DNA of 64,000 nt. It comes from Myxococcales bacterium. GTDB taxonomy: Bacteria; Lernaellota; Lernaellaia; Lernaellales; Lernaellaceae. The stretch is from contig JAAYVF010000006.1 in assembly GCA_012517325.1 (NCBI GenBank), forward strand, positions 1-64,000. Direction: 5' to 3'. How positions within the stretch are numbered: the stretch's first letter is position 1; the number at the start of each line of letters is the position of its first letter. The notes beneath the pieces are model-generated. The model was not told the origin of the DNA. It ran no database searches and saw only the letters and a program-made list of their open reading frames with translations. The position numbers were made by a program, and so were the translations under genes. Positions 47,472 to 62,659 of the stretch are shown here, piece by piece.

Positions 47472-48277
47472 TACGAAGCTCTCTTTCCATCGACCAACCA
47501 GGCGCGCAGGGCGTTTTCAACGCGCAGGGAAAGGTCCTTCCAAATCAAAATCGCCAGCATCCACCAGAGGACGATCCACAGCGGGACGCCGCCGATCCAA
47601 CCCAGATAATATTGATGGAGATGCCCGACCCGGATGTACAGCATTTCCATCGCCGGTCCGCCGACGAAGAATACGGCCAGCAGTTTCAGGTCGTGCCGGC
47701 TGGGGAAAAAGAAAAGCAGATAGATCGCCAGCGAAGCGAGAAACGGCAACCAGGAAAAAAGCGGATCGAGGTAGGTGCGATAGATCCATTGTCGGGTCGC
47801 CAAAATCAGAAGCAATTGAGCGCCGACCTTCAACGCCGGGCTCTCGACAAACCAGTCGCCGATGCCGATCCGATCGGCGGGCCGCGCCGGCGGGCCGAGA
47901 TTTTTCCAGCGCGCCAGGCGGGCGAAAAAACGAAGGATCATGCCCCAAAAAAGCAGCATCCAGGTCGGGATGGTGGAAAAGGCGGAATCGTACGGCACCG
48001 TATAGCGGTAAATACGGTGATGAACGACCGAGTTCCAATCGTTGAAGGCGCCGAGCAGGGTGCAGAGAATGAAGAACGGGATTTCGACGCGCCAGACGAC
48101 GCCCTTGGCAAAAATGCCGAGAGCCGCCATCCGCGCGAGGATCGCCAGCGGCACTAAAACCGATTGCCGGCCGAGCCGGTCGCTCCAGAGGCAGATGGTC
48201 ACGCTGATGACGGCGACCGTCAGGGCATCGATGGCGACGAGGATGTCCGGGTCGGGCGGCCGATCACGGTGCATCAT
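47471..48277 (-). CDS. Polytopic membrane protein of unknown function
   Basis: This is a 268-residue protein with about seven hydrophobic segments, including IPFFILCTLLGAFNDWNSVV, FSTIPTWMLLFWGMILRF and PLWIVLWWMLAILIWKDLSL. Conserved-looking polar spots are HHRIYRYTVPYD and HLHQYYLGW, which could be metal or haem ligands. I recognise no family. I chose the ATG at 48277 because it overlaps the radical SAM stop (ATGA); the frame upstream of it is a shadow. Its own stop touches the histidine kinase start, so three products are made together. Confidence 0.65.
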   Translation of the reverse strand: MMHRDRPPDPDILVAIDALTVAVISVTICLWSDRLGRQSVLVPLAILARMAALGIFAKGVVWRVEIPFFILCTLLGAFNDWNSVVHHRIYRYTVPYDSAFSTIPTWMLLFWGMILRFFARLARWKNLGPPARPADRIGIGDWFVESPALKVGAQLLLILATRQWIYRTYLDPLFSWLPFLASLAIYLLFFFPSRHDLKLLAVFFVGGPAMEMLYIRVGHLHQYYLGWIGGVPLWIVLWWMLAILIWKDLSLRVENALRAWLVDGKRAS

Positions 48278-49524
48278 CCGCGGCCGCCGTGAAAAGCGAA
48301 TTCCAGCAGTTCGCCGACAAAGCCGCTGCCGAGCGGATTGATAATGCCGTCCAGGTAGCGGGCCGTCGTGTAGTTCTGCATCCAGGCGCAATGCCCGCCG
48401 CATTGGTTTTTACCGGGGCCGTGGAAGAAATTCGGATTGACCTCCTTCCGGGCCGCCGCGTAGGCCTCGTCGAAGCCGGCATAATCCAAAAGATTGATAT
48501 CGGCCGGGGGGACATTGGCCGTGGCGCGACAGGGGAAGGTCAGGTGGCCGTTGGACCAGACGTGCGGTTTCAGCGCGGTCAGGCATTGGTAGGGTTGAGC
48601 GAAGAGCAGCCGTTCCAGCAGCGTCGGCGAGCCGATGATCGGTTGGCCGGCCCGTTTCCGCGCCACGATTTGCCCGGCGAGGTCCCGGTAGGCCGGGTCG
48701 TCGAGCAGTTCGCGGTTGGGTTCGTGCCGATAATTGACCGGCACGGGAACGAACCAGAGATCCAGGTCGGCGCATAAATCGAGGATCGCCCGCGCTTCCG
48801 GAATGTTGTCGCGGGTGATCACCGTATTGACCGCGAGCTTGAAGGTAACTTCCCGCCGCAACCGCCGCAACAACAGCAAATTGACGAAGACCTGTTCGAC
48901 CTGCTTGACGCGCCACAGCTTCCGCAGACCTTCGAGCTGCAAGCCGTCCAGACTGACGATCACCAGATCCATCTGCCGGAGAAAAGACCGGTAGGCCGGC
49001 TTGACCAACAGTTTGTGCAACAAGCCGCCGTTGGTGTTGATCATGTTGGGGAAATAGCCCAGATGCCAGGCGTAATCGAGCAGTTCCGGCAAATCCGGAC
49101 GCAGGGTCGGCTCGCCGCCGCACCAGTAGATGGCCGAGGTTCCGGTGATCATGCGCCGCAACAGGTCTTTGCCTTGCGCGGTGTCCAGGCGGTCCGGGTC
49201 CTTGTGGTCGTAGTAGTGCTCGCCCTGGTGGTTGTCGCAATAGGTGCAGCGGAAATTGCAATCGTTGAGCATCGTCCAAATTACGTAAAGGGGACGTAGC
49301 GCATGATCGCCCCGGCGATAACGCCGGCGATTGACGATCAGGTTCTCGCCCGCTTGCCTCAAGGCTTTCGCCTTGCGCCAGGCATCCGCCAGCCGGTCGG
49401 CGGGGGTGAGGTCGGAATCTTTGAGGATGACCGGCAGAATTCGCTCGGCCAGTTCCCGAGCTTGCCGGTCGCACGTTTCCCAATTGGGGTGTCCGCTTGC
49501 GGGGCGGTACCGGGTGAATTCCAC
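48274..49524 (-). CDS. Radical SAM protein with C-terminal Cys cluster
   Basis: This is a 416-residue protein. The radical SAM motif is NDCNFRCTYCDNHQ (C-x3-C-x2-C). IYWCGGEPTLRPDL is the GGEP-type SAM ribose loop, and MINTNGGLL is typical of the fold. The C-terminal part has further Cys in YQCLTALK, FPCRATA and NQCGGHCAWM, suggesting an auxiliary (SPASM/twitch-like) cluster. Such enzymes modify peptides, lipids or cofactors. A GTG start at 49524 is preferred (GAGGGAG eight bases upstream). First gene of the operon with the membrane protein and the hybrid kinase. Confidence 0.85.
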   Translation of the reverse strand: MEFTRYRPASGHPNWETCDRQARELAERILPVILKDSDLTPADRLADAWRKAKALRQAGENLIVNRRRYRRGDHALRPLYVIWTMLNDCNFRCTYCDNHQGEHYYDHKDPDRLDTAQGKDLLRRMITGTSAIYWCGGEPTLRPDLPELLDYAWHLGYFPNMINTNGGLLHKLLVKPAYRSFLRQMDLVIVSLDGLQLEGLRKLWRVKQVEQVFVNLLLLRRLRREVTFKLAVNTVITRDNIPEARAILDLCADLDLWFVPVPVNYRHEPNRELLDDPAYRDLAGQIVARKRAGQPIIGSPTLLERLLFAQPYQCLTALKPHVWSNGHLTFPCRATANVPPADINLLDYAGFDEAYAAARKEVNPNFFHGPGKNQCGGHCAWMQNYTTARYLDGIINPLGSGFVGELLEFAFHGGRG

Positions 49525-49572
49525 TGGTTTTTCTCCCTCGTCGGATCGGCGGAAAATCGGTTGCTTTACCCT

Positions 49573-49578
49573 ATTATA
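49573..49578 (-). promoter_or_regulatory. -10 box for the radical SAM operon
   Basis: A perfect TATAAT reads on the minus strand about 50 bases before the GTG start. No strong -35 hexamer lies at the right distance. Confidence 0.35.
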
Positions 49579-49733
49579 ACAGACCTCGAATAAAAACAGG
49601 GTAGCCGGATGGCGATCGCTTCCGGCCGAGCGGCATCCTGGCACGCTTGCTATTTATTGGATGAATGGAAAATCCCTTGCCAATTGAAGATGGATCGGGC
49701 AATAATCTGACGGGGGCGAAATGGAGGTTCGAT

Positions 49734-50534
49734 ATGAAACGGTTGCTCGGCCTCATTCTTTTTCTTGGTGTAAGCCTGGCGCCGGCGTGGCTTCTCGCCA
49801 ATCCGATTCCCGACGACAACGAACTGCCCCTGCAACAGGATCAAGGCAGCGTCTGCATCGGTTTTCGGCTCGATCAGAAAACCGCCATGGTTGATGGCGC
49901 AGTCCATGTATCCTCTGAATTGGAGATGAATTACCGCATCCGGCGGTATCTTGGCGATGAGGTGTCCGATATCGTCCCGGCGCGCCAATTTACGGCCGCC
50001 GAAGCCCTGGCGCGGGTCACCGAATGCACCCACATGGCCACCGATGACGACAGCGACATTTCCAGCGCCGCGGCTGACGCCGAGTGCGAACAGAATCCCG
50101 ATGAATGCGTGGATTGCGACGGCGACGGAACTCCCGATTGCTTCGGCCTGTGTTACGAGATGTTGTATTTCGTCATCGCGGATTTGTGCGCTCCCGCCGG
50201 CAGCGCCGATTACCTGATGGAAATGAAAGCTGAAGACGGCGACGACTGGAATGATTGGATGTCGGCTTCCATTACCATTAATCCGCCGTCCGGCGATTGT
50301 GTCGATACGACCGCTACGGTCTGTCAGAAAGTCTTTTGGACCGATTTGCCGCCGGATGCCTACGGCGACGACGATTCCGCCGACGGCGCGGCTGATGACG
50401 ACAACGACGATGATAACGACGACGACTCAGGCGGTTGCAGCGTCGGCCGGGGCGATCCGTTACTTTCACTGCTCGGCGCGATGGCGGCGATCGGCCTGGT
50501 CGCCTTGGCCGTCTCCCGGCGGCGGGAGCGCTGA
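49734..50534 (+). CDS. Secreted Cys-containing protein with MYXO-CTERM-like anchor
   Basis: This is a 266-residue protein. A signal peptide (MKRLLGLILFLGVSLAPAWL) precedes a domain with PLQQDQGSVCIGFRLDQKTA, CVDCDGDGTPDCFGLCYEM and YFVIADLCAPAG, then an Asp-rich linker. The C-terminus is GGCSVGRG, a hydrophobic helix (LLSLLGAMAAIGLVALAV) and SRRRER. That is the MYXO-CTERM layout, in which the Cys is processed and lipidated to hold the protein on the cell surface. The ATG at 49734 has GGAGG six bases upstream. Tandem paralogue of 50659-51399. Domain function unknown. Confidence 0.75.
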   Translation: MKRLLGLILFLGVSLAPAWLLANPIPDDNELPLQQDQGSVCIGFRLDQKTAMVDGAVHVSSELEMNYRIRRYLGDEVSDIVPARQFTAAEALARVTECTHMATDDDSDISSAAADAECEQNPDECVDCDGDGTPDCFGLCYEMLYFVIADLCAPAGSADYLMEMKAEDGDDWNDWMSASITINPPSGDCVDTTATVCQKVFWTDLPPDAYGDDDSADGAADDDNDDDNDDDSGGCSVGRGDPLLSLLGAMAAIGLVALAVSRRRER

Positions 50535-50658: not shown

Positions 50659-51399
50659 ATGAGAATTTCAGCCGTCGTGATTTGCTTCGCGGTTCTGTTT
50701 GTCGTTTCGAACGCGGTTTTCGCCAACCCGGTTTCCAACGAGCAGGATTTGCCTCTGCAACAAGACCATGGCAGCGTTTGTATCGGCTTTCGGTTGGATA
50801 AAAAAACATGGATGGACGACGGCGATCTCCAGATTTCTTCCGACTTGGATAGCCAATTCCGGATCCATCGCGAGATCGGCGAGGAAACGACGACCATTCT
50901 GCCCGATGGTTTGCTTGCCGAGAATGAAGCCCTCGCGCATGTCTATTCCGAATGCGGGCACATGAACAACGAACCGGAAATCGATTGCGAAAAAACCCCC
51001 GAAAAGTGCGTGGATTGCGACGGCGATCAAGTGCCGGAATGCACCGGCATGTGCTACGAGATGTTCTATTTCGTCATTGCCGATCTCTGTGCGCCGGCCG
51101 GTAAAGCCCGGTATGCCATCGAGCAGCAATCCAAGGTAACCCAGGATTGGTACGAGATCATGACCGGCACCATTAAAATCGATCCGCCGGACGGTATTTG
51201 TGCCGATAAGGCTTACTCCGTCTGTCAGGAAGTCTTTTGGATGGATTTACCATCGGACGCATACAATGAGGACAATATCGACGACGACGACTCCGGTGGG
51301 TGCAGTGTCAGCCGGGGCGATCCGCTGCTTTCGCTGCTGGGTGCGATGGCGGCGATCGGCCTGGTCGCCTTGGCCGTCTCCCGGCGGCGGGAGCGCTGA
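50659..51399 (+). CDS. Secreted Cys-containing protein with MYXO-CTERM-like anchor (paralogue)
   Basis: This is a 246-residue protein with a signal peptide ending NAVFAN. The domain matches its neighbour: LPLQQDHGSVCIGFRLDKKT, EKCVDCDGDQVPECTGMCYE and YFVIADLCAPAGKA. The linker is short (EDNIDDDDSGG) and the terminal anchor (GCSVSRGDPLLSLLG to RRRER) is almost identical to its neighbour's. The linker has diverged while the anchor stayed the same, consistent with gene duplication and selection for surface attachment. No separate terminator is seen between the two. Confidence 0.75.
   Translation: MRISAVVICFAVLFVVSNAVFANPVSNEQDLPLQQDHGSVCIGFRLDKKTWMDDGDLQISSDLDSQFRIHREIGEETTTILPDGLLAENEALAHVYSECGHMNNEPEIDCEKTPEKCVDCDGDQVPECTGMCYEMFYFVIADLCAPAGKARYAIEQQSKVTQDWYEIMTGTIKIDPPDGICADKAYSVCQEVFWMDLPSDAYNEDNIDDDDSGGCSVSRGDPLLSLLGAMAAIGLVALAVSRRRER
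51295..51399 (+). repeat. Near-identical copy of the 50430-50534 anchor-coding DNA
   Basis: The last 105 bases of the two paralogues are highly similar, with the final 60 or so bases apparently identical, much closer than the rest of the genes. This points to recent duplication or gene conversion of the anchor segment. Confidence 0.6.
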
Positions 51400-51717
51400 G
51401 CATCGCCCCCGGGGAATGGTTGCTTCGACACACGCTTTCAGAATCCGCAAATGAGTTTTGGCGCCATTTTTTACGCTTTGTAGCGGTGTGTATCGGCCTA
51501 ATGAGCCTGGCCAAGTTTCAGCACTGCTAAAAATTGAGCGCATTCATTTCCCGCGAATCCACACCTCAGAAATTCGCTAATTTGTTTCTAACAAGAGGCA
51601 AACGCGATGTTTATCGGGCCCGGATCGGCTGGCACGCTTTTTGCCCTCCTGATGGACAGGATCGAGTAACCGTCAGTTTCCGGCGATTTTCCGGAGACCT
51701 TTTTCGAGGGAGAGAGC
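51400..51717. other. Intergenic region before the CotH operon
   Basis: A 318-base gap containing a good sigma-54-like promoter at 51630. An open frame runs through it from 51534 but has no ribosome site or recognisable product. Confidence 0.5.
51630..51645 (+). promoter_or_regulatory. Sigma-54-like promoter of the CotH-VTC operon
   Basis: TGGCAC-GCTTT-TTGCC, with GG (51631) and GC (51643) exactly 12 bases apart. This is a near-perfect -24/-12 element, about 85 bases upstream of the operon's first start codon. Activation by an enhancer-binding protein would be expected. Confidence 0.55.
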
Positions 51718-53361
51718 GTGAAAATGAAAAGCCGGCGAATCATTCGTGTCCTTTTGTTTCTTCTGTTCGCGGTGCTTGCCTTGGCGGTCTGGGGTTGCGC
51801 CAATAGCGGCGATGATGACGACGACTCGGGCTCCGATGATGACGCCGCCGATGACGACGCCGCCGACGACGATGACAACGACCAAAGCGACGACGATAGC
51901 GGCGACGACACGGCGGGCGGGACGATCGTCCTCAACGAAATCGACTGCCATGGCCGCGACTGGGTGGAACTCGTCAACACCTCGGCGGCGGAAATCGACA
52001 TCAGCGGCTGGTACGTCGCCGACGATCTGACCGAGGACGGCCATCAGTACGAGGTGCCCGCCGGCAGCGTCGTGCAACCGGACGAGCATTACGTCATCAA
52101 ACAGGAAGAAGATTTGGAGGAGGGTTTCACCTTCGGGCTCAAGTGCGCCGAGGATACCGTCTACCTGTTGGATTCGTCCATGAACGTCATGGCGCAAGAG
52201 ACCATCGGCGAAGTGCCCGACGGCAGCACCTGGGGCCGGTTGCCCGACGTCACGGGCGATTGGCAGGAAACCAGCCCGACTCAAGGGGAGACGAACCAGG
52301 AGCCTTATTCCTCCTCCTCGACCTTTTTCAATCCGCTGACCATCAACACCGTGCGCATCACCTTGTCCGACGGCGCGGTCACCTCCTTGACCAATGAGCC
52401 GTATGAATTCGTCGAGGGACAAATCCAAGTCGTTTCCGGCGAGGTCACCAGCGATTTGCTGACCGTCGGCGTCCGCCTGAAAAGCGGCGAGTCCTTCCAG
52501 CCGATCACCGGCAAGGCTGCCTTCAAAATCAAGATCAACGAATACGACACGACGGCGCGGCTGTTCGGCCTGAAGGGTTTCAGCCTGAACAACATGATCG
52601 ACGATCCGACCATGATGCATGAAACGCTCGCCTACACGATTTTTCGCGGCATCGGGATTCCGGCGATTCGCGCCGGTTATGCCTGGGTGCTGGTCAACGG
52701 CGAGGCGCGCGGCTTGTACGCGACGATCGAAAACTACGACGACGTTTTCGCCGCCTTTCAGTTCGAGAACACCTCGCACGTCTACGAAGGAACCGCGGAC
52801 CTCGATTCCACCCATGTCGGTCAGATCGACGTCGACGAGGGCGACGAATCCGATCGGCAGGATCTGCTGACTTTGGTCGATGTGTTGAACAATACCGCCG
52901 ACGACTCCTGGACCGCCGCGGTCGCCGCGCTCTTCGATTTTGATCTCTTTCTCGATCTGTGGGCGGTGGAGAACTACATCGGCCAGACCGACGGGTATGC
53001 GCAAGCGGCCAACAACTATTTCCTGCACAGCGACAACGACGGCTATTTCACCATGATGCCCTGGGGAACCGATCGCGCCTTCACCGACAAACCGGCGTTT
53101 CCCAGTGGCACGAGCATCGTCTGCTCCCGTTGCCTGGGCATCAGCGGTTGCGCCGACCTGTACGACACCGCGTTGCCGACGATCGTCGCCGCCATCGAAA
53201 ACCTAGATCCGGACACCCTGATCACGGAAATCGACTCGACGATCGCCAGCCACGTGCAGGACGATGAATACGCCCAGTATACCTATGCCGAGTATCAGGC
53301 CGCCGTGGCAGGTTTGCGCGAATATCTCGCCGACCGGCCCGACGAAGCCAGCGCGATCTGA
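51718..53361 (+). CDS. Lamin-tail domain plus CotH kinase lipoprotein
   Basis: This is a 547-residue protein. A signal ends AVWGCANSG (probable lipobox), then an acidic linker (SDDDAADDDAADDDDND). Residues about 70-190 are a lamin-tail domain (IVLNEIDCHGRDWVELVNTS, ISGWYVADD). The CotH kinase-like domain follows with FGLKGFSLNNMIDDPTMMHE, GYAWVLVNGEARGLYATIEN, LWAVENYIGQTDGYAQAANN and MMPWGTDRAF. The last motif usually has D-x-D in my recollection; here the first is Gly, which might affect catalysis. CotH proteins phosphorylate coat or surface proteins. GTG start after GAGGGAGAGAGC. First gene of the operon. Confidence 0.85.
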   Translation: MKMKSRRIIRVLLFLLFAVLALAVWGCANSGDDDDDSGSDDDAADDDAADDDDNDQSDDDSGDDTAGGTIVLNEIDCHGRDWVELVNTSAAEIDISGWYVADDLTEDGHQYEVPAGSVVQPDEHYVIKQEEDLEEGFTFGLKCAEDTVYLLDSSMNVMAQETIGEVPDGSTWGRLPDVTGDWQETSPTQGETNQEPYSSSSTFFNPLTINTVRITLSDGAVTSLTNEPYEFVEGQIQVVSGEVTSDLLTVGVRLKSGESFQPITGKAAFKIKINEYDTTARLFGLKGFSLNNMIDDPTMMHETLAYTIFRGIGIPAIRAGYAWVLVNGEARGLYATIENYDDVFAAFQFENTSHVYEGTADLDSTHVGQIDVDEGDESDRQDLLTLVDVLNNTADDSWTAAVAALFDFDLFLDLWAVENYIGQTDGYAQAANNYFLHSDNDGYFTMMPWGTDRAFTDKPAFPSGTSIVCSRCLGISGCADLYDTALPTIVAAIENLDPDTLITEIDSTIASHVQDDEYAQYTYAEYQAAVAGLREYLADRPDEASAI

Positions 53362-53418
53362 AGCGTCTCCGATTCCCGGCCGGCGATTTCACGTTTCCGG
53401 CGGTGGAGTGCAAGCGTC

Positions 53419-54099
53419 ATGGAAAATCTGCTCTTGAGCTTCGGTTCGATGAAACTGGAATGGAGCGGCGTGCTTCTTTCCTTCCTGGTCACGTTTCTTT
53501 GTTCCAGCCTGGTTGCCGCGACCTATGAGAAAACCTTTCAAGGGCTCTCCTGGTCGCGCGGGTTGTTGCATACCATGATTCTGGGCAGCCTGACTTCCAG
53601 CCTGATCATGATCGCGATCGGCGACAACGTGGCGCGCGGCATCGGCATCGTCGGTTCGCTGGCGATCATTCGTTTCCGCACCAATTTGCGCGATCCCCGC
53701 GATTTGATCTTCCTCTTCGTTTCCATGGGCGTCGGCGTGGCGAGCGGCGTGCAAAGTTACATCAGCGCCATTCTCGGCACGGCCTTTTTCTGCCTGGTCG
53801 CGATCGGCCTCAATCGCACGCAATTCGGCCGGCGGTACTCGCACGACGGCCTGGTGCGGTTTCAGGTGCCGGCCGGCCCGACCGGTTCCGAGCAGGTGGC
53901 GCGGGTGATGAGCACGATTCCGGCGCACTTCGCCCTGGTGACGATGCGCTCGGCTGCTCAGGGCGACGTGGTGGATTACGCCTATCAGGTGCGGTTGGCG
54001 CGCGAGGGCGAGGAAGGGGTGTTGCTTCGCGAGTTGGAAGGCGTTTCGGGGATTCGCGGTCTCGTCTATGTGAATCAACAAACGACGGTCGAATTGTAG
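53419..54099 (+). CDS. DUF4956 membrane protein
   Basis: This is a 226-residue protein with three or four N-terminal membrane helices, then the DUF4956 signature ARGIGIVGSLAIIRFRTNLR-DPRDL (the R-F-R-T-x-x-(R/K)-D-x-x-D segment), another hydrophobic stretch and a C-terminal ferredoxin-like cytoplasmic domain. DUF4956 proteins are repeatedly found beside VTC polyphosphate polymerases and CotH kinases, as here. They probably form the membrane part of a polymer-making complex; that role is inferred from neighbourhood. Confidence 0.88.
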   Translation: MENLLLSFGSMKLEWSGVLLSFLVTFLCSSLVAATYEKTFQGLSWSRGLLHTMILGSLTSSLIMIAIGDNVARGIGIVGSLAIIRFRTNLRDPRDLIFLFVSMGVGVASGVQSYISAILGTAFFCLVAIGLNRTQFGRRYSHDGLVRFQVPAGPTGSEQVARVMSTIPAHFALVTMRSAAQGDVVDYAYQVRLAREGEEGVLLRELEGVSGIRGLVYVNQQTTVEL

Positions 54100-54106
54100 G
54101 TGCGCG

Positions 54107-56143
54107 ATGAAAGATCTGGGGCGCTACAAATTTCATCTCATCTGGCTGACCATGGCCCTCTTCACGTTCGGATTCTATTTCGTTTACCACGTCAACGCCG
54201 ACCTGCTCGGCATCGTGGAAACGCGGACGCATAAGCTCGGCGCCCTGGAGTCGGGACGCATCCGGTCCATTCACGTCGCGCTGGGCGATGAAGTGACGAC
54301 GAACCAAGTGCTGGTCGAACTGGATACAGCCGATCTGGAGATCGAGCACGACGGGCTGGCGCAGGAACTGAATCGCCTGGGCGGCATGTTCGAAAGCGAC
54401 CGGCGGCGCTACACGCTGGAATACGAAAAACTGCGGCTGCAGCGCGACACGGAAGCGGCGCGGCTGGAATCGAAAAGAGCCGAACTGAACGCGCTCAACA
54501 ATGAAATCGAGCGGTTGAACGAGGCGGAACAGGCGGGCTTCGGCCGGCCGCGCAACTTGACCGACCTCATCATCCGCCGCGACATCGCGGCCGGGTACGT
54601 GAAAAAGGAAAGCGCCCGCGACACCTCTTCCTGGCGGCATTCGCGCGCGCCGGGGGCCAACGAGAAAGCCTTGCCGGGCGATAATCTGGTCTTATCGATG
54701 CTCAACGACCGGATTTCGCAAATGCATGAGCTCGAATTGAAAACCAAATTGATCGAGGACCGGATCGAGCGGCGGCGCGTCATTTCCCCCTGCAACGGCC
54801 GGATCGTCAACATCAATTACCTGCCGGGCGATTCGGTCGAAGGTTTTTCCACCATTCTGACCGTCGAGGAACCCGAGGCCAGCTTCGTGGACGTCTTCAT
54901 TCCGGAAAGCTCCGACATCGTTCCGCAATTGGGCGAGCGGGTCGACGTGATGCCGCATCGCTTCGGCGTCGCGGACACCAAGGGCACCATCATTTTCGTC
55001 GATCCGGGTTATTCGGCGATTCCCGAGCGGTTGGCTTTTCGCAAGGTCATCTACTGGGCGCGCAAGTTCCGCGTGCGCTTGGACGAAGGGCATCATCTGC
55101 GGCCCGGCGAATCGGTCGAGGTCGGCATTCGCGGGGAAATCGTGCCGTCCGGCGCCGCGCAGGCGATGGAAACCAAGCCGGAACTTCGCCGACCGAAGAC
55201 GCCGGAACCGCCGGCCACGTTGACGGCGGCCGCATTGTCGACCGTCACCGTGAGCGATCGCCTGCGCGCGATCAGCCGATTCGAGCCGTCCGGCATTGCC
55301 TGGCTGGACGACCTCAAGCGGTATGTGCTGGTCAGTGACGACACCAGCCGCCAGGACCCGGAGCACCAGCCCTGGATTTACCTGATGGACGAGGCCGGCA
55401 ATTTGGACGAGCAACCCGTCCCCTTGCACGGCGTGGATTCGGTCAACGACCTGGAGTCGATCGTTTCGGCTCCGAACGGGGTGCTCTACCTGGTGTCGTC
55501 GATGAATGCCAGCCACCGCGGCAAACGCCCCCCCGATCGGCAGCGGATTTACCGGGTCGTCCATACCGGCCGTTCGTTCAAGGTGACCGGCGTGGTGAAT
55601 TTCCTTTCGGTTTTGTGCCAGTCCTATCAGCCCGCTCAACTGGGGCGGCTCGGGCTGGATCCTTTGCTCGGCGATGCGATCGAACTGAATATCGAAGGCG
55701 CCACCTGGTACAAGGGCGATGTCCTTTTCGGATTGAAGCAACCGCGTCCGGCCAAAGGGGCGATTGTCTGGCGGTTGAAGGATCCCGAACGATTGTTCGC
55801 AACCAATACCCTGGCGCCGGGGCAACTGGAGGTCTTCGGCTATGCGGATTTGCGGACTCCGGACGGAAGGCCGGCCGGGATTTCCGATCTGCTGGCCGAG
55901 TCTTCCGGCCGTCTCTTGGCCTTGTCCACCGTGCCGCAAGCCGAAAAAAGCAAGCAGGTCGGCGGATTGCATATTCTCGTCGAAACCAAAACCGACCGGC
56001 TGTTGGTCAAGCCGATGCTGAACTTTCCCGCCCTCAAGCCGGAAGGGCTGTGCGCCCGCGACGCGGATCGGCTGACGATCGTTTTCGACTCGGATGACGA
56101 ACCGCCCTTTTACTACCACACCCTAGGATCGCTCGACCAATGA
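54107..56143 (+). CDS. Membrane-fusion protein fused to a C-terminal beta-propeller-like domain
   Basis: This is a 678-residue protein. A single anchor helix (LIWLTMALFTFGFYFVYHV) is followed by the first half of a barrel-sandwich (lipoyl-like) domain, GALESGRIRSIHVALGDEVT. Then come coiled-coil arms (residues about 80-150 and 200-225) and the second half, ISPCNGRIVNINYLPGDSVE, i.e. an HlyD/RND-type periplasmic adaptor. After a Pro-rich linker (about 350-375), some 300 residues look like a phytase-like or DUF3616-like propeller: GIAWLDDLKRYVLVSDDT, SIVSAPNGVLYLVSSMN, IEGATWYKGDVLFGLKQ. I know no adaptor with this fusion. The stop overlaps the TolC-like start. Confidence 0.75.
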   Translation: MKDLGRYKFHLIWLTMALFTFGFYFVYHVNADLLGIVETRTHKLGALESGRIRSIHVALGDEVTTNQVLVELDTADLEIEHDGLAQELNRLGGMFESDRRRYTLEYEKLRLQRDTEAARLESKRAELNALNNEIERLNEAEQAGFGRPRNLTDLIIRRDIAAGYVKKESARDTSSWRHSRAPGANEKALPGDNLVLSMLNDRISQMHELELKTKLIEDRIERRRVISPCNGRIVNINYLPGDSVEGFSTILTVEEPEASFVDVFIPESSDIVPQLGERVDVMPHRFGVADTKGTIIFVDPGYSAIPERLAFRKVIYWARKFRVRLDEGHHLRPGESVEVGIRGEIVPSGAAQAMETKPELRRPKTPEPPATLTAAALSTVTVSDRLRAISRFEPSGIAWLDDLKRYVLVSDDTSRQDPEHQPWIYLMDEAGNLDEQPVPLHGVDSVNDLESIVSAPNGVLYLVSSMNASHRGKRPPDRQRIYRVVHTGRSFKVTGVVNFLSVLCQSYQPAQLGRLGLDPLLGDAIELNIEGATWYKGDVLFGLKQPRPAKGAIVWRLKDPERLFATNTLAPGQLEVFGYADLRTPDGRPAGISDLLAESSGRLLALSTVPQAEKSKQVGGLHILVETKTDRLLVKPMLNFPALKPEGLCARDADRLTIVFDSDDEPPFYYHTLGSLDQ

Positions 56144-57381
56144 AAGCTCTTCTGCTCTGGTGCCTGTCGGCCTTGGCTCTGCTCGGCGGACTCGCTTGGG
56201 CGGGCGAGCCGTTGACGCAAGCCCGGGCGATTCAATTGACCCTGGCGCGTTCGCCGGAATTGACTGCGGAACTGGCGGCGGCGGCGGCCCAGGGGGAATT
56301 GGCGGACTCCGTGGCCGGGGCGATCGAGAACCCTGAAATCCGCTTGGAGGATCTCACCACGAAGTATTTCGATCCCGAGCAGGAGCGCGATTTTCAACTC
56401 GGTTTTCGGTGGAGCCCGCCGCGGATCGGCGAACCGGCGTTGCGGCGGCAGGAGGAGACCGTCGACTGGTTCGAGAAAAAACTGAAGGCCGACGCGACCC
56501 GGCGCAAACTGATCGCGGAAGCCGGGCAACTGTTCGCGGAAACCGCGATGCTACGCGAAAGCGCGGACCTGGCCGCGCGCACCGCCGATTTGGAGGAACA
56601 GCGGTTGTCGCGGGTCGAGCAATTCGTCCAGTTGGGCGAAGCCGATTTGCTGGAGCGATTGAAGACGCAGCGGCGCCTGACCAAGAACCGGGGCGAGGCG
56701 CGGAGCCTGCAATCCCGGTTGGCGGCCTGCGAAACCCGCTTGCGAGCGCTGACCGGTTTGTCCGGAGAATTGACGTTGGCCGCCGATCCGCCGCCGAATG
56801 TCGAGTTTGATCCCGCGAAGCTGCGCCTCATCGCGACGAGAAACCGGGCGGAAATGTCCTGGCGACAACAATGGGAGCGTCTGGCGCAACGACGGTACGA
56901 CGCCGCCCGCTATCGTTTGATTCCCCAGTTTTCCTTCATCGAAGTGGATCATCATTTTGAAGGCGACGATGACGATTTCGATGAACTGCGGGTCGGCGTG
57001 GAAATCCCGCTCTTCAATTGGACGGTCGCCGATCGTCGGGCGACCGCGATCCTTCGCAGGACCGCCGCAGACCGTGAAAACGCGACCGCCGAAGGGATCG
57101 GAAGGGAAATCGACTCGAGCCTGGCGAATTACCGCGAGGCGCTGGCGGTGTGGCGGGCGACGCGGGGCGATGCCGAAAAAACGCGAGATCTGTGCGCTCA
57201 ACAACTCGAAATCGCGCGCCGGCAGGGGCTGTTATCGTCCGTCGAATTGCTGGACCTGGAAATCGAGGGAATCGCCGCGCGCCGCGCGCTGGCCGAGGCG
57301 CTTTATGAATTGCGGGCGGCCGCCGTCGAGCTGCAGGCGGCGACCGGAGCCGCGGGTTGGGAAGAACTGATCGCGCTGTGA
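56140..57381 (+). CDS. TolC-family outer membrane channel protein
   Basis: This is a 413-residue protein. Signal peptide residues 1-22 (ALALLGGLAWAG). The opening LTQARAIQLTLARSPELTAE and later EARSLQSRLAACETRLRAL and the second repeat IDSSLANYREALAVWRATRG are the paired long-helix pattern of outer membrane efflux proteins. VGVEIPLFNWTVADRR is the conserved P-(L/I)-F strand. It would form the outer-membrane exit for the adaptor encoded just upstream. Four-base overlap (ATGA) with that gene and a short gap to the VTC gene. No inner-membrane pump is encoded here. Confidence 0.87.
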   Translation: MKALLLWCLSALALLGGLAWAGEPLTQARAIQLTLARSPELTAELAAAAAQGELADSVAGAIENPEIRLEDLTTKYFDPEQERDFQLGFRWSPPRIGEPALRRQEETVDWFEKKLKADATRRKLIAEAGQLFAETAMLRESADLAARTADLEEQRLSRVEQFVQLGEADLLERLKTQRRLTKNRGEARSLQSRLAACETRLRALTGLSGELTLAADPPPNVEFDPAKLRLIATRNRAEMSWRQQWERLAQRRYDAARYRLIPQFSFIEVDHHFEGDDDDFDELRVGVEIPLFNWTVADRRATAILRRTAADRENATAEGIGREIDSSLANYREALAVWRATRGDAEKTRDLCAQQLEIARRQGLLSSVELLDLEIEGIAARRALAEALYELRAAAVELQAATGAAGWEELIAL

Positions 57382-57390
57382 GGGATGCCG

Positions 57391-58164
57391 ATGCGTAACG
57401 ATAGCATGGTGATTTCCCGCTACGAAAACAAATACCTCATCCGCGAGACGATGGCGCGGGCCATCGCCGATTACCTGCGCGGGATTTGCGTGCCGGACAA
57501 GCACGCCGGCGCCGACGGCCGGTACATGGTGAACAACTTGTATTTCGACACGCCGGACCTGCGCTTCTACCACGACACGCGCAACAAGCGTTATACGCGC
57601 TTCAAACCACGGGTCCGCTATTACGGCCCGCGGCCGACCGATTTTCTCTGGATCGAACTGAAACACAAAGTGAAGAACGTCACCTGGAAGAAACGGCGCC
57701 GGATCGCGGTGGCGGATTGGCCCGAGTTTCTGCACGATGGTTCGTGCCGGCCGCCGGCGAACCCGGCGTGGATCACGCTGGCCGATTCGTTCGAGGACGC
57801 GGTCTGCCGCTTCGGCGCGCATCCGGTGGTTCAGGTGCAGTACATTCGCGAGCCCTACGTCAGCGAATTGGACGATTATTGTCGCATAACCTTTGATCGC
57901 TGTCTGACTTTCCGATCGGTGCGCGGCAGTTACGAACTCGTCGCGAACGAGAATTTGACTTACTTCGACAATACCGTGGATACCGCCTTTTGTTCGTGCG
58001 AGTCGCCGGTGATCCTGGAAATCAAAACGGAAACCAACGTGCCGATCTGGGTGCTCCGGTTGATCCGCCGCTTTGAGTTGATCCAACGAGGATTTTCCAA
58101 ATACTGCAATGCGATCGAGGCCGCCATGGGATACACGGCTTGTTCGCTGCGCCGGCTCGCTTAG
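57391..58164 (+). CDS. VTC-domain polyphosphate polymerase
   Basis: This is a 257-residue protein with the VTC tunnel fold. ISRYENKYLIRETMA carries the basic/acidic opening, NLYFDTPDLRFYHDT and RFKPRVRYYG (R-x-R) follow, then FLWIELKHKVKNVTWKKRR (E-x-K). CRITFDRCLTFR and VILEIKTETN (E-x-K) complete the metal and triphosphate site, and GFSKYCNAIE ends the domain. Such enzymes make polyphosphate from ATP. I chose the ATG at 57391 because GAGGG is six bases upstream; an ATG at 57385 abuts that site. Last gene of the operon. Confidence 0.9.
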   Translation: MRNDSMVISRYENKYLIRETMARAIADYLRGICVPDKHAGADGRYMVNNLYFDTPDLRFYHDTRNKRYTRFKPRVRYYGPRPTDFLWIELKHKVKNVTWKKRRRIAVADWPEFLHDGSCRPPANPAWITLADSFEDAVCRFGAHPVVQVQYIREPYVSELDDYCRITFDRCLTFRSVRGSYELVANENLTYFDNTVDTAFCSCESPVILEIKTETNVPIWVLRLIRRFELIQRGFSKYCNAIEAAMGYTACSLRRLA

Positions 58165-61270: not shown

Positions 61271-62659
61271 TCATCCACAACCGCAGCCGGATTCGTCGCG
61301 GTCCGAATCGGCGGCCGACGATTGCCCATTCGGCGTATCATCGCCGTTATCGTTGTCGTTGTCATCATCGGATATCGCGTCGTCATCCGCGGCGTCGTCG
61401 TCGGTAGGCTGATAATCGGGATACCGGACGACGAAATTCCGTTCGTAGAGGTCGCCCAGCATCAGCCAGGGTGCGAGCCCGTAATACTCGCCCCGGGTCA
61501 AGTCCGCCCACGCCAGGCACTCGGCGCAGGGCGGGCGATGGAAAGTCTGCGTGTAGCCGCCCTCGTAGACGCGATAAAAAGCGAACCCTTGCGGGTATTC
61601 CTTGGTTGCCGGCGTCTCGACGTAGGGCACCCAGCCGGTGCGATCGTCGAAGTTGAGCCGCGCCCGGTGGCTGTGCCCGGCGAACAGGCCGACGAAATTC
61701 GGGTAGTTCGCCAGCAATTCGGTAAACTGCCGGCAATCGGCCGGATTCACCGCGTAAGCCAGCGCGCCGTGCAAGGCGAACGTGTGGTGGCTGAAAATCA
61801 TCACGCGCCGACCGGCGTCGCGCGCATCATTTAATACATCCGCCAGCCAGGGGAATTGTTCGTCGGAGAGGTCGCCGCTGCCCAGTTCGTTGTTGGTGTC
61901 CAAGATGATGAACCGCAACGGGCCGTGGTCGAAGTAGTAATAGGTCGGGTCGATCCCGAGCACTTCCTTAAAATAGTCGTGCCCGTCGCGCGGGCGGTCG
62001 TGATTGCCGCGCGCATAATAAAGATCGGCGTCTAGTTCGCCGAAAATGGCCTGCGCGTCCGCGAATTGCTCGGCCTCGGCGGTCGAGGTGACGTCGCCTT
62101 TGTGAATGACGAAATCCGGCGCCAGCTCATTGATCGTCGCCACGGCCGCTTCGTTGGTGAAAAGCCAGTAGGGCCGGTCGGGATCGTCCCAGGTGAATCC
62201 AGGCGTCAACACCAGACCGCCGATGACGATCAGGCCGGCCGTTTCCTCGCCGACGTGCGTGTCGTTGAGCGTCACGAATGAAAAGAGGTAGTTGCCGGGC
62301 GGCGCTTGTTGCGTGTGAACCCAACCGGGCGAAAACGGATTTTCATCCGCGCTCGCCGGCGTGGTATCGAGGGAGGTCGAATAAAAATAGGTCGTATCGG
62401 GTTCCAGATCGTCCACCCAGACCAGATGCATGGCTGTCAGTTCGGCTGACTCTTCCCAGGGAGTCAAATCATCGGGATCCGCACTGTAATACAGAATCGA
62501 CAGTGTCGGTTCGTCGGTTTTCCAGGCGACCGCGAACCCGTTTTCGCTGACCGAAAGCAGCTCTTCGTACTCGACTTGAGCGCCCAGAGCCAAAAAGGGG
62601 AGCAATAAAATAGCGCAAAAGACACATTTCCCGACACATCGTTTGATTGTTTCGATCAT
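61271..62659 (-). CDS. Secreted metallophosphoesterase with Asp-rich linker and GCGCG tail
   Basis: This is a 462-residue protein. A signal peptide (CVFCAILLLPFLALGA) precedes a fibronectin-III-like domain of about 80 residues (FAVAWKTDEPTLSILYYS, TTYFYSTS) as in purple acid phosphatases. The calcineurin-like core follows: TLNDTHVG (D-x-H), VIHKGDVTS (G-D), YARGNHDRPRDG (G-N-H-D), MIFSHHTFALHG and GLFAGHSHRARL. All metal ligands appear present. After an Asp/Asn linker it ends DRDESGCGCG, echoing the KGCGC tails at 1431-2819. It would hydrolyse phosphomonoesters or diesters outside the cell. Confidence 0.85.
   Translation of the reverse strand: MIETIKRCVGKCVFCAILLLPFLALGAQVEYEELLSVSENGFAVAWKTDEPTLSILYYSADPDDLTPWEESAELTAMHLVWVDDLEPDTTYFYSTSLDTTPASADENPFSPGWVHTQQAPPGNYLFSFVTLNDTHVGEETAGLIVIGGLVLTPGFTWDDPDRPYWLFTNEAAVATINELAPDFVIHKGDVTSTAEAEQFADAQAIFGELDADLYYARGNHDRPRDGHDYFKEVLGIDPTYYYFDHGPLRFIILDTNNELGSGDLSDEQFPWLADVLNDARDAGRRVMIFSHHTFALHGALAYAVNPADCRQFTELLANYPNFVGLFAGHSHRARLNFDDRTGWVPYVETPATKEYPQGFAFYRVYEGGYTQTFHRPPCAECLAWADLTRGEYYGLAPWLMLGDLYERNFVVRYPDYQPTDDDAADDDAISDDDNDNDNGDDTPNGQSSAADSDRDESGCGCG

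Follow-up and report, generated by a model that had tools for sequence, protein, structure and literature searches.

What is the function of an operon that combines a putative polyphosphate polymerase with a periplasmic adaptor and an outer-membrane channel, and that encodes no pump? The operon in question lies at 51718-58164 on the + strand of the first 64,000 nucleotides (the whole stretch analysed, hereafter the window) of contig JAAYVF010000006.1, from a bacterium deposited as Myxococcales and placed in Lernaellota by GTDB (G000; GCA_012517325.1; 5.2 Mb, 97% complete). Its five open reading frames (ORFs) encode, in this order, a CotH protein with a lamin-tail domain (LTD), a DUF4956 membrane protein, an HlyD-like adaptor fused to a beta-propeller, a TolC-family channel, and a VTC-domain protein. 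A first-pass annotation, made from the sequence alone, took them for an envelope machine that makes a phosphate polymer at the inner membrane, passes it through the adaptor and TolC, and decorates a surface target by way of CotH. Here, we describe a recurrent module in which DUF4956, judged by gene order, stands at the pump's place beside the adaptor and TolC. We propose, with a probability of about 0.45, that the five genes encode a tripartite exporter with DUF4956 as its inner-membrane channel, and that this exporter is fed with polyphosphate.

The operon and its products

The five ORFs form a single tight operon. The gaps are 57 bp between CotH and DUF4956, 7 bp between DUF4956 and HlyD, and 3 bp between TolC and VTC; the HlyD and TolC genes overlap by 4 bp. 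Location, families and spacing agree with the first-pass annotation, and so does the lack of a pump: a Pfam scan found no RND, ABC or MFS pump gene in the operon and no pel genes adjoining it. Among the 25 of 102 families listed for the 39 other ORFs of the window, there is one ABC ATPase domain, far from the operon.

The VTC protein (57385..58164, +; 259 aa; Pfam VTC 1.2e-34) is predicted to be soluble and cytoplasmic. A profile of 32 VTC homologues matches the structure of yeast Vtc4 (3g3q) at 5.1e-14 and, more weakly, the paralogues Vtc2 and Vtc3. Residues R76, R78, E91, K93, K102, R155, E212, and K214 are invariant in 87 of 87 homologues. Three of them, R76, R78, and E212, correspond to R264, R266, and E426 of Vtc4, mutation of which abolishes function (PMC9911596). 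By its sequence, with a Vtc4-homologous tunnel domain, the catalytic residues and a basic tunnel, the window protein is a predicted VTC-type polymerase. Every polymerase tunnel residue being present, the earlier assignment to phosphate-polymer synthesis appears sound.

The DUF4956 protein (53419..54099, +; 226 aa; Pfam DUF4956 9e-11) is the proposed inner-membrane channel. It has helices at 15-133, making 4-5 membrane helices, and a C-terminal ACT-like domain at 143-219 (AlphaFold2 model, pLDDT 82.9). A conserved Arg-rich motif, AIIRFRTNLRDPRD, occupies 82-95; R85 and R87, which lie in the membrane part, are invariant even when the monoderm proteins are included. In a Foldseek search with the model, ACT domains rank first and the C-terminal domain of MgtC (2lqj) is at rank 28. 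The MgtC Pfam match (2.3e-4, 21.9 bits) is below the cut-off of 31.4 bits, and the protein shares with MgtC its plan of membrane helices followed by ACT, a plan likewise reported for SIR_1592 of S. intermedius (PMC12345266). A sequence search against solved structures returned nothing significant, and no Vtc1 match was found in Pfam or PDB searches, the protein being MgtC-like with an ACT domain. It is likely that DUF4956 is the inner-membrane partner of the adaptor.

The adaptor (54107..56143, +) is recognised by NCBIfam (EmrA-type, 4.7e-10), by Pfam HlyD_D23 at 4.3e-6, which is below the cut-off, and by its structural model (pLDDT 83.7), the best Foldseek match of which is EmrA of EmrAB-TolC (7.4e-16). 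Residues 1-345 comprise a membrane helix (4-29), a barrel-sandwich (lipoyl) domain, an alpha-hairpin of ~145 residues (75-222), and a beta-barrel (277-345). The C-terminal beta-propeller extends over about residues 381-674, and conserved polar residues fall in its successive blades (E393, S395, D411, E450, R478, E530, K544, D594, E646, and D661). This set resembles that of phytase-like and SdiA-regulated propellers, and the propeller may bind phosphate or Ca. The channel protein (56140..57381, +; 413 aa) has a signal sequence and two OEP repeats (Pfam OEP 1.9e-17; type_I_sec_TolC 8.5e-9). An adaptor with anchor, hairpin, lipoyl domain and barrel, and a TolC channel with two OEP repeats, are what a tripartite system contains as far as sequence and model tell; what the operon lacks is an encoded RND, ABC or MFS pump.

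The CotH protein (51718..53361, +; 547 aa; GTG start; Pfam CotH 1.4e-40, LTD 7.4e-15) resembles a surface lipoprotein. It has a signal sequence with a Cys after VWG, an Asp-rich linker, a lamin-tail domain at 65-162, and a CotH kinase-fold domain at 266-541 that matches the solved spore coat protein H (5jd9) at 1.1e-6. The catalytic Asp residues of B. subtilis CotH are D228 and D251 (PMC7821199). In alignment columns, D425 of the window protein is the equivalent of D228, and G450 replaces the equivalent of D251, giving PWGTD instead of PWDxD; 55 of 59 homologues have Asp at this second site. Thus the kinase fold is present and one of the two catalytic Asp residues is not, which makes kinase action of the window protein doubtful, and with it the earlier claim that CotH decorates a target. 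Since PWGTD is also found in two other loci (L027 and L039), the change appears to mark a subfamily and not decay.

Conservation and distribution of the module

To see how widely the genes occur together, 84,980 species genomes were scanned with DUF4956 as the sole query, which gave 71 loci. With the window locus and one further (G004) these make 73; the family profiles used for scoring derive from the proteins of those two. A matching HlyD is present in 72 of the 73 loci, TolC in 67, VTC in 41, CotH and the HlyD propeller in 28 each, and LTD in 26. Where the genes are consecutive, all DUF4956-HlyD pairs (63/63) and HlyD-TolC pairs (73/73) are ≤300 bp apart, with median gaps of 8 and -1 bp, respectively; TolC and VTC lie within 300 bp in 34 of 36 consecutive pairs (median 4.5 bp). 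The DUF4956-HlyD-TolC clade spans about 12 phyla; an isolate, Desulfonema magnum (L029), carries the operon with VTC. The phyla named for these loci include Gemmatimonadota, Myxococcota, Calditrichota, KSB1, Fidelibacterota (Neomarinimicrobiota), Ignavibacteriota, Thermodesulfobacteriota, Fibrobacterota, Acidobacteriota, Spirochaetota, Sumerlaeota, Pseudomonadota, Nitrospirota, and Bacteroidota. Gene clustering found no pump family that recurs beyond the core families among the genes of the 71 loci. Of the 7 genomes surveyed in the window phylum, only G004, from another family, has VTC besides G000. Its contig carries in a row DUF4956, an HlyD that lacks the propeller, TolC, VTC, a lipoprotein with a lamin-tail domain, and two proteins of the CotH-lectin kind. 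G004 thus has a CotH relative with PWDxD.

Because the first query was of the HlyD/TolC type, a possible source of bias, sampling was widened family by family. DUF4956 was looked for in 198 Bacteroidota genomes (59 positive), and VTC in 148 Desulfobacterota (5 positive), 349 Pseudomonadota (8 positive) and 149 Spirochaetota (10 positive); five monoderm plasmid loci were added. Five arrangements emerge. VTC-DUF4956, often with CotH, stands alone in monoderms, most Spirochaetota, and some others. In the Bacteroides type, VTC-DUF4956, often with CotH, is joined by a DUF2490 outer-membrane barrel (Pfam DUF2490 1e-22 to 1e-29). In a third arrangement an independent HlyD-like adaptor, MFP2, precedes VTC-DUF4956, and a propeller protein of the SdiA-regulated/phytase-like kind is at times encoded separately. 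The fourth, DUF4956-HlyD-TolC-VTC, is that of the window, and the fifth is DUF4956-HlyD-TolC without VTC. MFP2 (about 355 aa; weak or no Pfam match) lies directly upstream of VTC-DUF4956 in L164-L191 (Bacteroidota). The DUF2490 gene is part of the VTC-DUF4956 operon in L145, L148, L149, L151, L153-L156, L160, and L195, which suggests a possible role for DUF2490. On a short Desulfobacterota contig (L186; G091:C113), two neighbouring frames that overlap each encode a VTC domain.

When 129 DUF4956 proteins are placed in a tree, all 74 that are linked to HlyD and TolC fall inside one clade of 80 (support 100/99), about half of whose loci continue with VTC. Of the other six proteins in the clade, five have HlyD with no TolC scored, some of them on incomplete contigs, and one (L025) has neither. 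This restriction to one clade points to a stable partnership. The MFP2-linked proteins form a single clade of 14 in Bacteroidota (98/83). MFP2 having joined once, and the DUF2490 barrel in the Bacteroides-type lineage, it appears that envelope parts were recruited to VTC-DUF4956 more than once. Chance clustering of the genes is ruled out by the conservation of gene set, tree clade and spacing, and the expectation that the families would recur together across genomes was borne out. A joint function of the five genes is well supported, and the products very probably act together.

One Bacteroidota branch inside the HlyD/TolC clade, with 28 loci (98/92), lacks VTC at the locus; Algoriphagus and Pleomorphovibrio are isolates with this form. 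Among 22 such genomes checked, VTC is missing altogether from 16 and lies elsewhere in six, in four of these beside its own DUF4956; gene clustering found no recurrent extra gene in place of VTC. As this branch retains DUF4956-HlyD-TolC, DUF4956, and not VTC, is the constant partner of the conduit. Of the first-pass annotation, the five genes stand as a real module with DUF4956 in the pump's place; what needs correction is that VTC is not the conduit's invariant partner. Nor do diderms in general need the conduit, since the trio VTC-DUF4956-CotH occurs alone in Spirochaetota and in some Pseudomonadota, Desulfobacterota, and Bacteroidota. HlyD and TolC are absent from all six monoderm loci examined, namely records from Paenibacillus, Acetoanaerobium, Enterococcus, Nonomuraea, and Pseudobutyrivibrio and the published C. 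perfringens locus (PMC2879425), which have VTC-DUF4956, often with CotH; in the last, the 'tubulin-like' gene beside VTC is taken as DUF4956 because of its position and size. A strict rule of conduit in diderms and none in monoderms holds for these six loci and fails for the Spirochaetota and other diderms.

Wherever the presence of VTC can be determined, a propeller on HlyD goes with VTC at the locus (23 of 23), and there is none in the VTC-less branch. Of 27 classified loci with a propeller-bearing HlyD, 22 have VTC ≤6 kb away, one (L009) has it farther off, and in four the contig breaks off within TolC or after it. A periplasmic domain is in this way linked to what VTC makes. As for CotH, eight of the 24 genomes searched have a single CotH gene (G000, G008, G016, G018, G021, G027, G028, and G035), and in all eight it lies within about 7 kb of the DUF4956 locus, three of them being without VTC. 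G000 has one VTC gene and one CotH gene in its genome, both inside the operon, and the two CotH genes at the G004 locus are the only ones of that genome.

Two Saprospiraceae VTC loci have, between DUF4956 and CotH, a putatively secreted CYTH protein (L194:9138-10016, -; L197:971-1843, +). With its N-terminal signal-like stretch, it would be a second tunnel-type phosphate enzyme, apparently outside the cytoplasm. The CYTH enzymes include inorganic triphosphatases (PMC3440374).

A proposed export pathway and its alternatives

We propose the following pathway. VTC would polymerise phosphate from ATP in the cytoplasm. DUF4956 would take the chain from VTC and form the inner-membrane passage, in the position of EmrB or MacB, acting like the Vtc1/3/4 membrane channel of yeast in synthesis-coupled export. 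The EmrA-like adaptor and TolC, presumably in one complex with it, would take the chain outward through periplasm and outer membrane, while the propeller may bind, gate or trim the VTC product. For the CotH/LTD surface lipoprotein encoded alongside, the exported chain could be a ligand, an anchor or a source of phosphoryl groups. The VTC-less branch would carry PPK1-made chains or other cargo. Synthesis-coupled export is the most economical reading. It is helped by the Saprospiraceae loci with their apparently secreted CYTH protein and by the invariant Arg in the membrane part of DUF4956, which is comparable with the Arg/Lys-lined channel through which synthesis is coupled to translocation in yeast (PMC9911596). 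Also in its favour are the conservation of the operon and the confinement of its HlyD/TolC linkage to one DUF4956 clade, the persistence of DUF4956-HlyD-TolC in the VTC-less branch, the repeated recruitment of envelope parts, the absence of the conduit from the six monoderm loci, the Vtc4-type tunnel residues, the EmrA-like adaptor, the lack of PPK1 and PPK2 in G000 and G004, and the linkage of the propeller to VTC and of single-copy CotH to the locus. That polyphosphate is the exported cargo we hold at slightly less than even odds.

Several points weigh against this pathway. Many diderms (Spirochaetota, some Pseudomonadota, Desulfobacterota, and Bacteroidota) have VTC-DUF4956-CotH without a conduit. 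In the VTC-less branch the cargo would have to be PPK1-made polyphosphate or something else. MgtC relatives are known for regulatory roles, and the channel role of DUF4956 is a proposal, as is polyphosphate as the cargo. VTC and PPK1 are not complementary across other phyla (6/18 vs 21/60). In S. intermedius, no change was reported after deletion of the VTC gene, while Pel and aggregation were altered in deletion mutants of the DUF4956 or CotH homologue (PMC12345266); VTC may thus be an accessory part.

The distribution of PPK enzymes bears on the source of the polymer. Genome searches found neither PPK1 nor PPK2 in G000 or G004, so VTC would be the sole polyphosphate synthase of known type there. 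PPK1 is absent in 7 of 7 genomes of the window phylum, VTC present or not, and other phyla show no link; VTC as a replacement for PPK1 is unsupported. PPK1 is present in 16 of 16 VTC-free Bacteroidota genomes, a count confounded by ancestry, because the whole branch counts as a single evolutionary event and PPK1 is usual in Bacteroidota.

It is rather unlikely that the substrate of DUF4956-HlyD-TolC is a different one (an ion, small anion or glycan precursor), with VTC an add-on whose cytoplasmic polyphosphate is a store, counter-ion or energy source for the exporter. VTC is indeed dispensable, being absent from the 28 Bacteroidota loci and having no reported phenotype in S. intermedius (PMC12345266), and the MgtC kinship of DUF4956 points to ion or phosphate homeostasis. 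However, VTC adjoins DUF4956 with or without the conduit, in monoderms and diderms, which suits direct hand-over, and a periplasmic propeller present only with VTC means that VTC affects the periplasmic side. An assembly or control system for the surface matrix, in which DUF4956 is a metabolite sensor through its ACT domain, CotH acts on a surface glycan or protein as modifier or scaffold, and the adaptor and TolC secrete a matrix component, would fit the Gram-positive loci where VTC-DUF4956-CotH adjoins Pel or other polysaccharide genes (PMC7112168; PMC12345266; a Pseudobutyrivibrio plasmid). It would also fit the finding that, in genomes with a single CotH, no other gene keeps to the locus as faithfully as CotH does, even without VTC. 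We regard it as unlikely: no glycosyltransferase or Pel gene is found in the window operon and none recurs among the 71 diderm loci, and the strict adjacency of DUF4956, HlyD and TolC, in the pump's place, is left unexplained.

Were the VTC product not polyphosphate but, for example, a triphosphate or a phosphorylated surface precursor, this would accord with the several activities described for the tunnel fold (PMC8233210, PMC4641920) and with the lack of any reported bacterial VTC activity in the literature searched. The invariance of all polymerase tunnel residues, with Vtc4 as the nearest solved structure and Vtc2 and Vtc3 after it, makes such a product highly improbable. The most far-reaching version, dedicated polyphosphate secretion, in which VTC- or PPK1-made polyphosphate is threaded via DUF4956 and the adaptor/TolC conduit to the surface and there supplies phosphoryl groups or anchors to CotH-family proteins, so that bacteria would have an extracytoplasmic phosphorylation chemistry that needs no ATP, is in our judgement improbable; if shown, it would be a categorically new reading.

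Other features of the window

Directly 5' of the CotH gene is a terminator-like hairpin with a T run (51676..51698, +). It is a consensus match only and weak evidence, as 16 such sites were found against 9.5 expected. Directly upstream of the operon lie two tandem paralogous secreted proteins (49665-50534 and 50659-51399, +) with a weak MYXO-CTERM/JDVT-CTERM-like C-terminal sorting signal. A radical SAM protein (48274-49644, -) adjoins the operon; all its NCBIfam matches are below cut-off, and it belongs to no curated family. A secreted calcineurin-like phosphoesterase (61271-62659, -), with a purple-acid-phosphatase-like N-terminus and an Asp-rich tail, is encoded 3 kb from the VTC gene.

Comparison with known systems

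The individual families are known. No paper joining VTC or DUF4956 with HlyD/TolC was found in the literature searched, subscription papers being outside the search, and that literature likewise holds no description of a tripartite arrangement that lacks a pump and includes a polymerase. The proposed export of polyphosphate would offer a candidate route for placing polyphosphate outside bacteria, of which the literature searched supplies none. It would also assign a testable function, that of an exporter's inner-membrane part, to DUF4956 and, by kinship, perhaps to the MgtC-type membrane proteins, whose role has long been puzzling, and would account for VTC, DUF4956 and CotH travelling together, the trio being no peculiarity of Pel.

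The Gram-positive Pel loci (PMC7112168; SIR_1592-1594 in PMC12345266) likewise have CotH, polyphosphate polymerase and DUF4956 side by side; they have no HlyD or TolC, whereas the window operon has no Pel genes. The synteny of the trio has been stated not to be found outside Pel loci (PMC12345266). Contrary to this, it occurs in many non-Pel contexts. With the Bacillus CotH spore-coat kinase the window protein shares a homologous domain and the first catalytic Asp (D228 equivalent); unlike it, the window protein is predicted to be a surface lipoprotein with a lamin-tail, and has Gly at the D251 equivalent, as in L027 and L039.

EmrAB-TolC and MacAB-TolC have the same adaptor fold (EmrA being closest) and TolC channel, encoded by adjacent genes, and the EmrAB-TolC pump is, like DUF4956, without large periplasmic parts. 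The window operon has no MFS or ABC pump; in its place is the 226-aa DUF4956, a polymerase is added, and a propeller is fused to the adaptor. The yeast VTC complex (Vtc1/Vtc3/Vtc4) has a homologous tunnel polymerase with the same catalytic residues, and a proposed coupling of synthesis and translocation through a basic membrane channel. It differs in its membrane partner, which in the window is not Vtc1-type but DUF4956 (MgtC-like with ACT); the window system also has no SPX, and its adaptor and TolC would span a second membrane.

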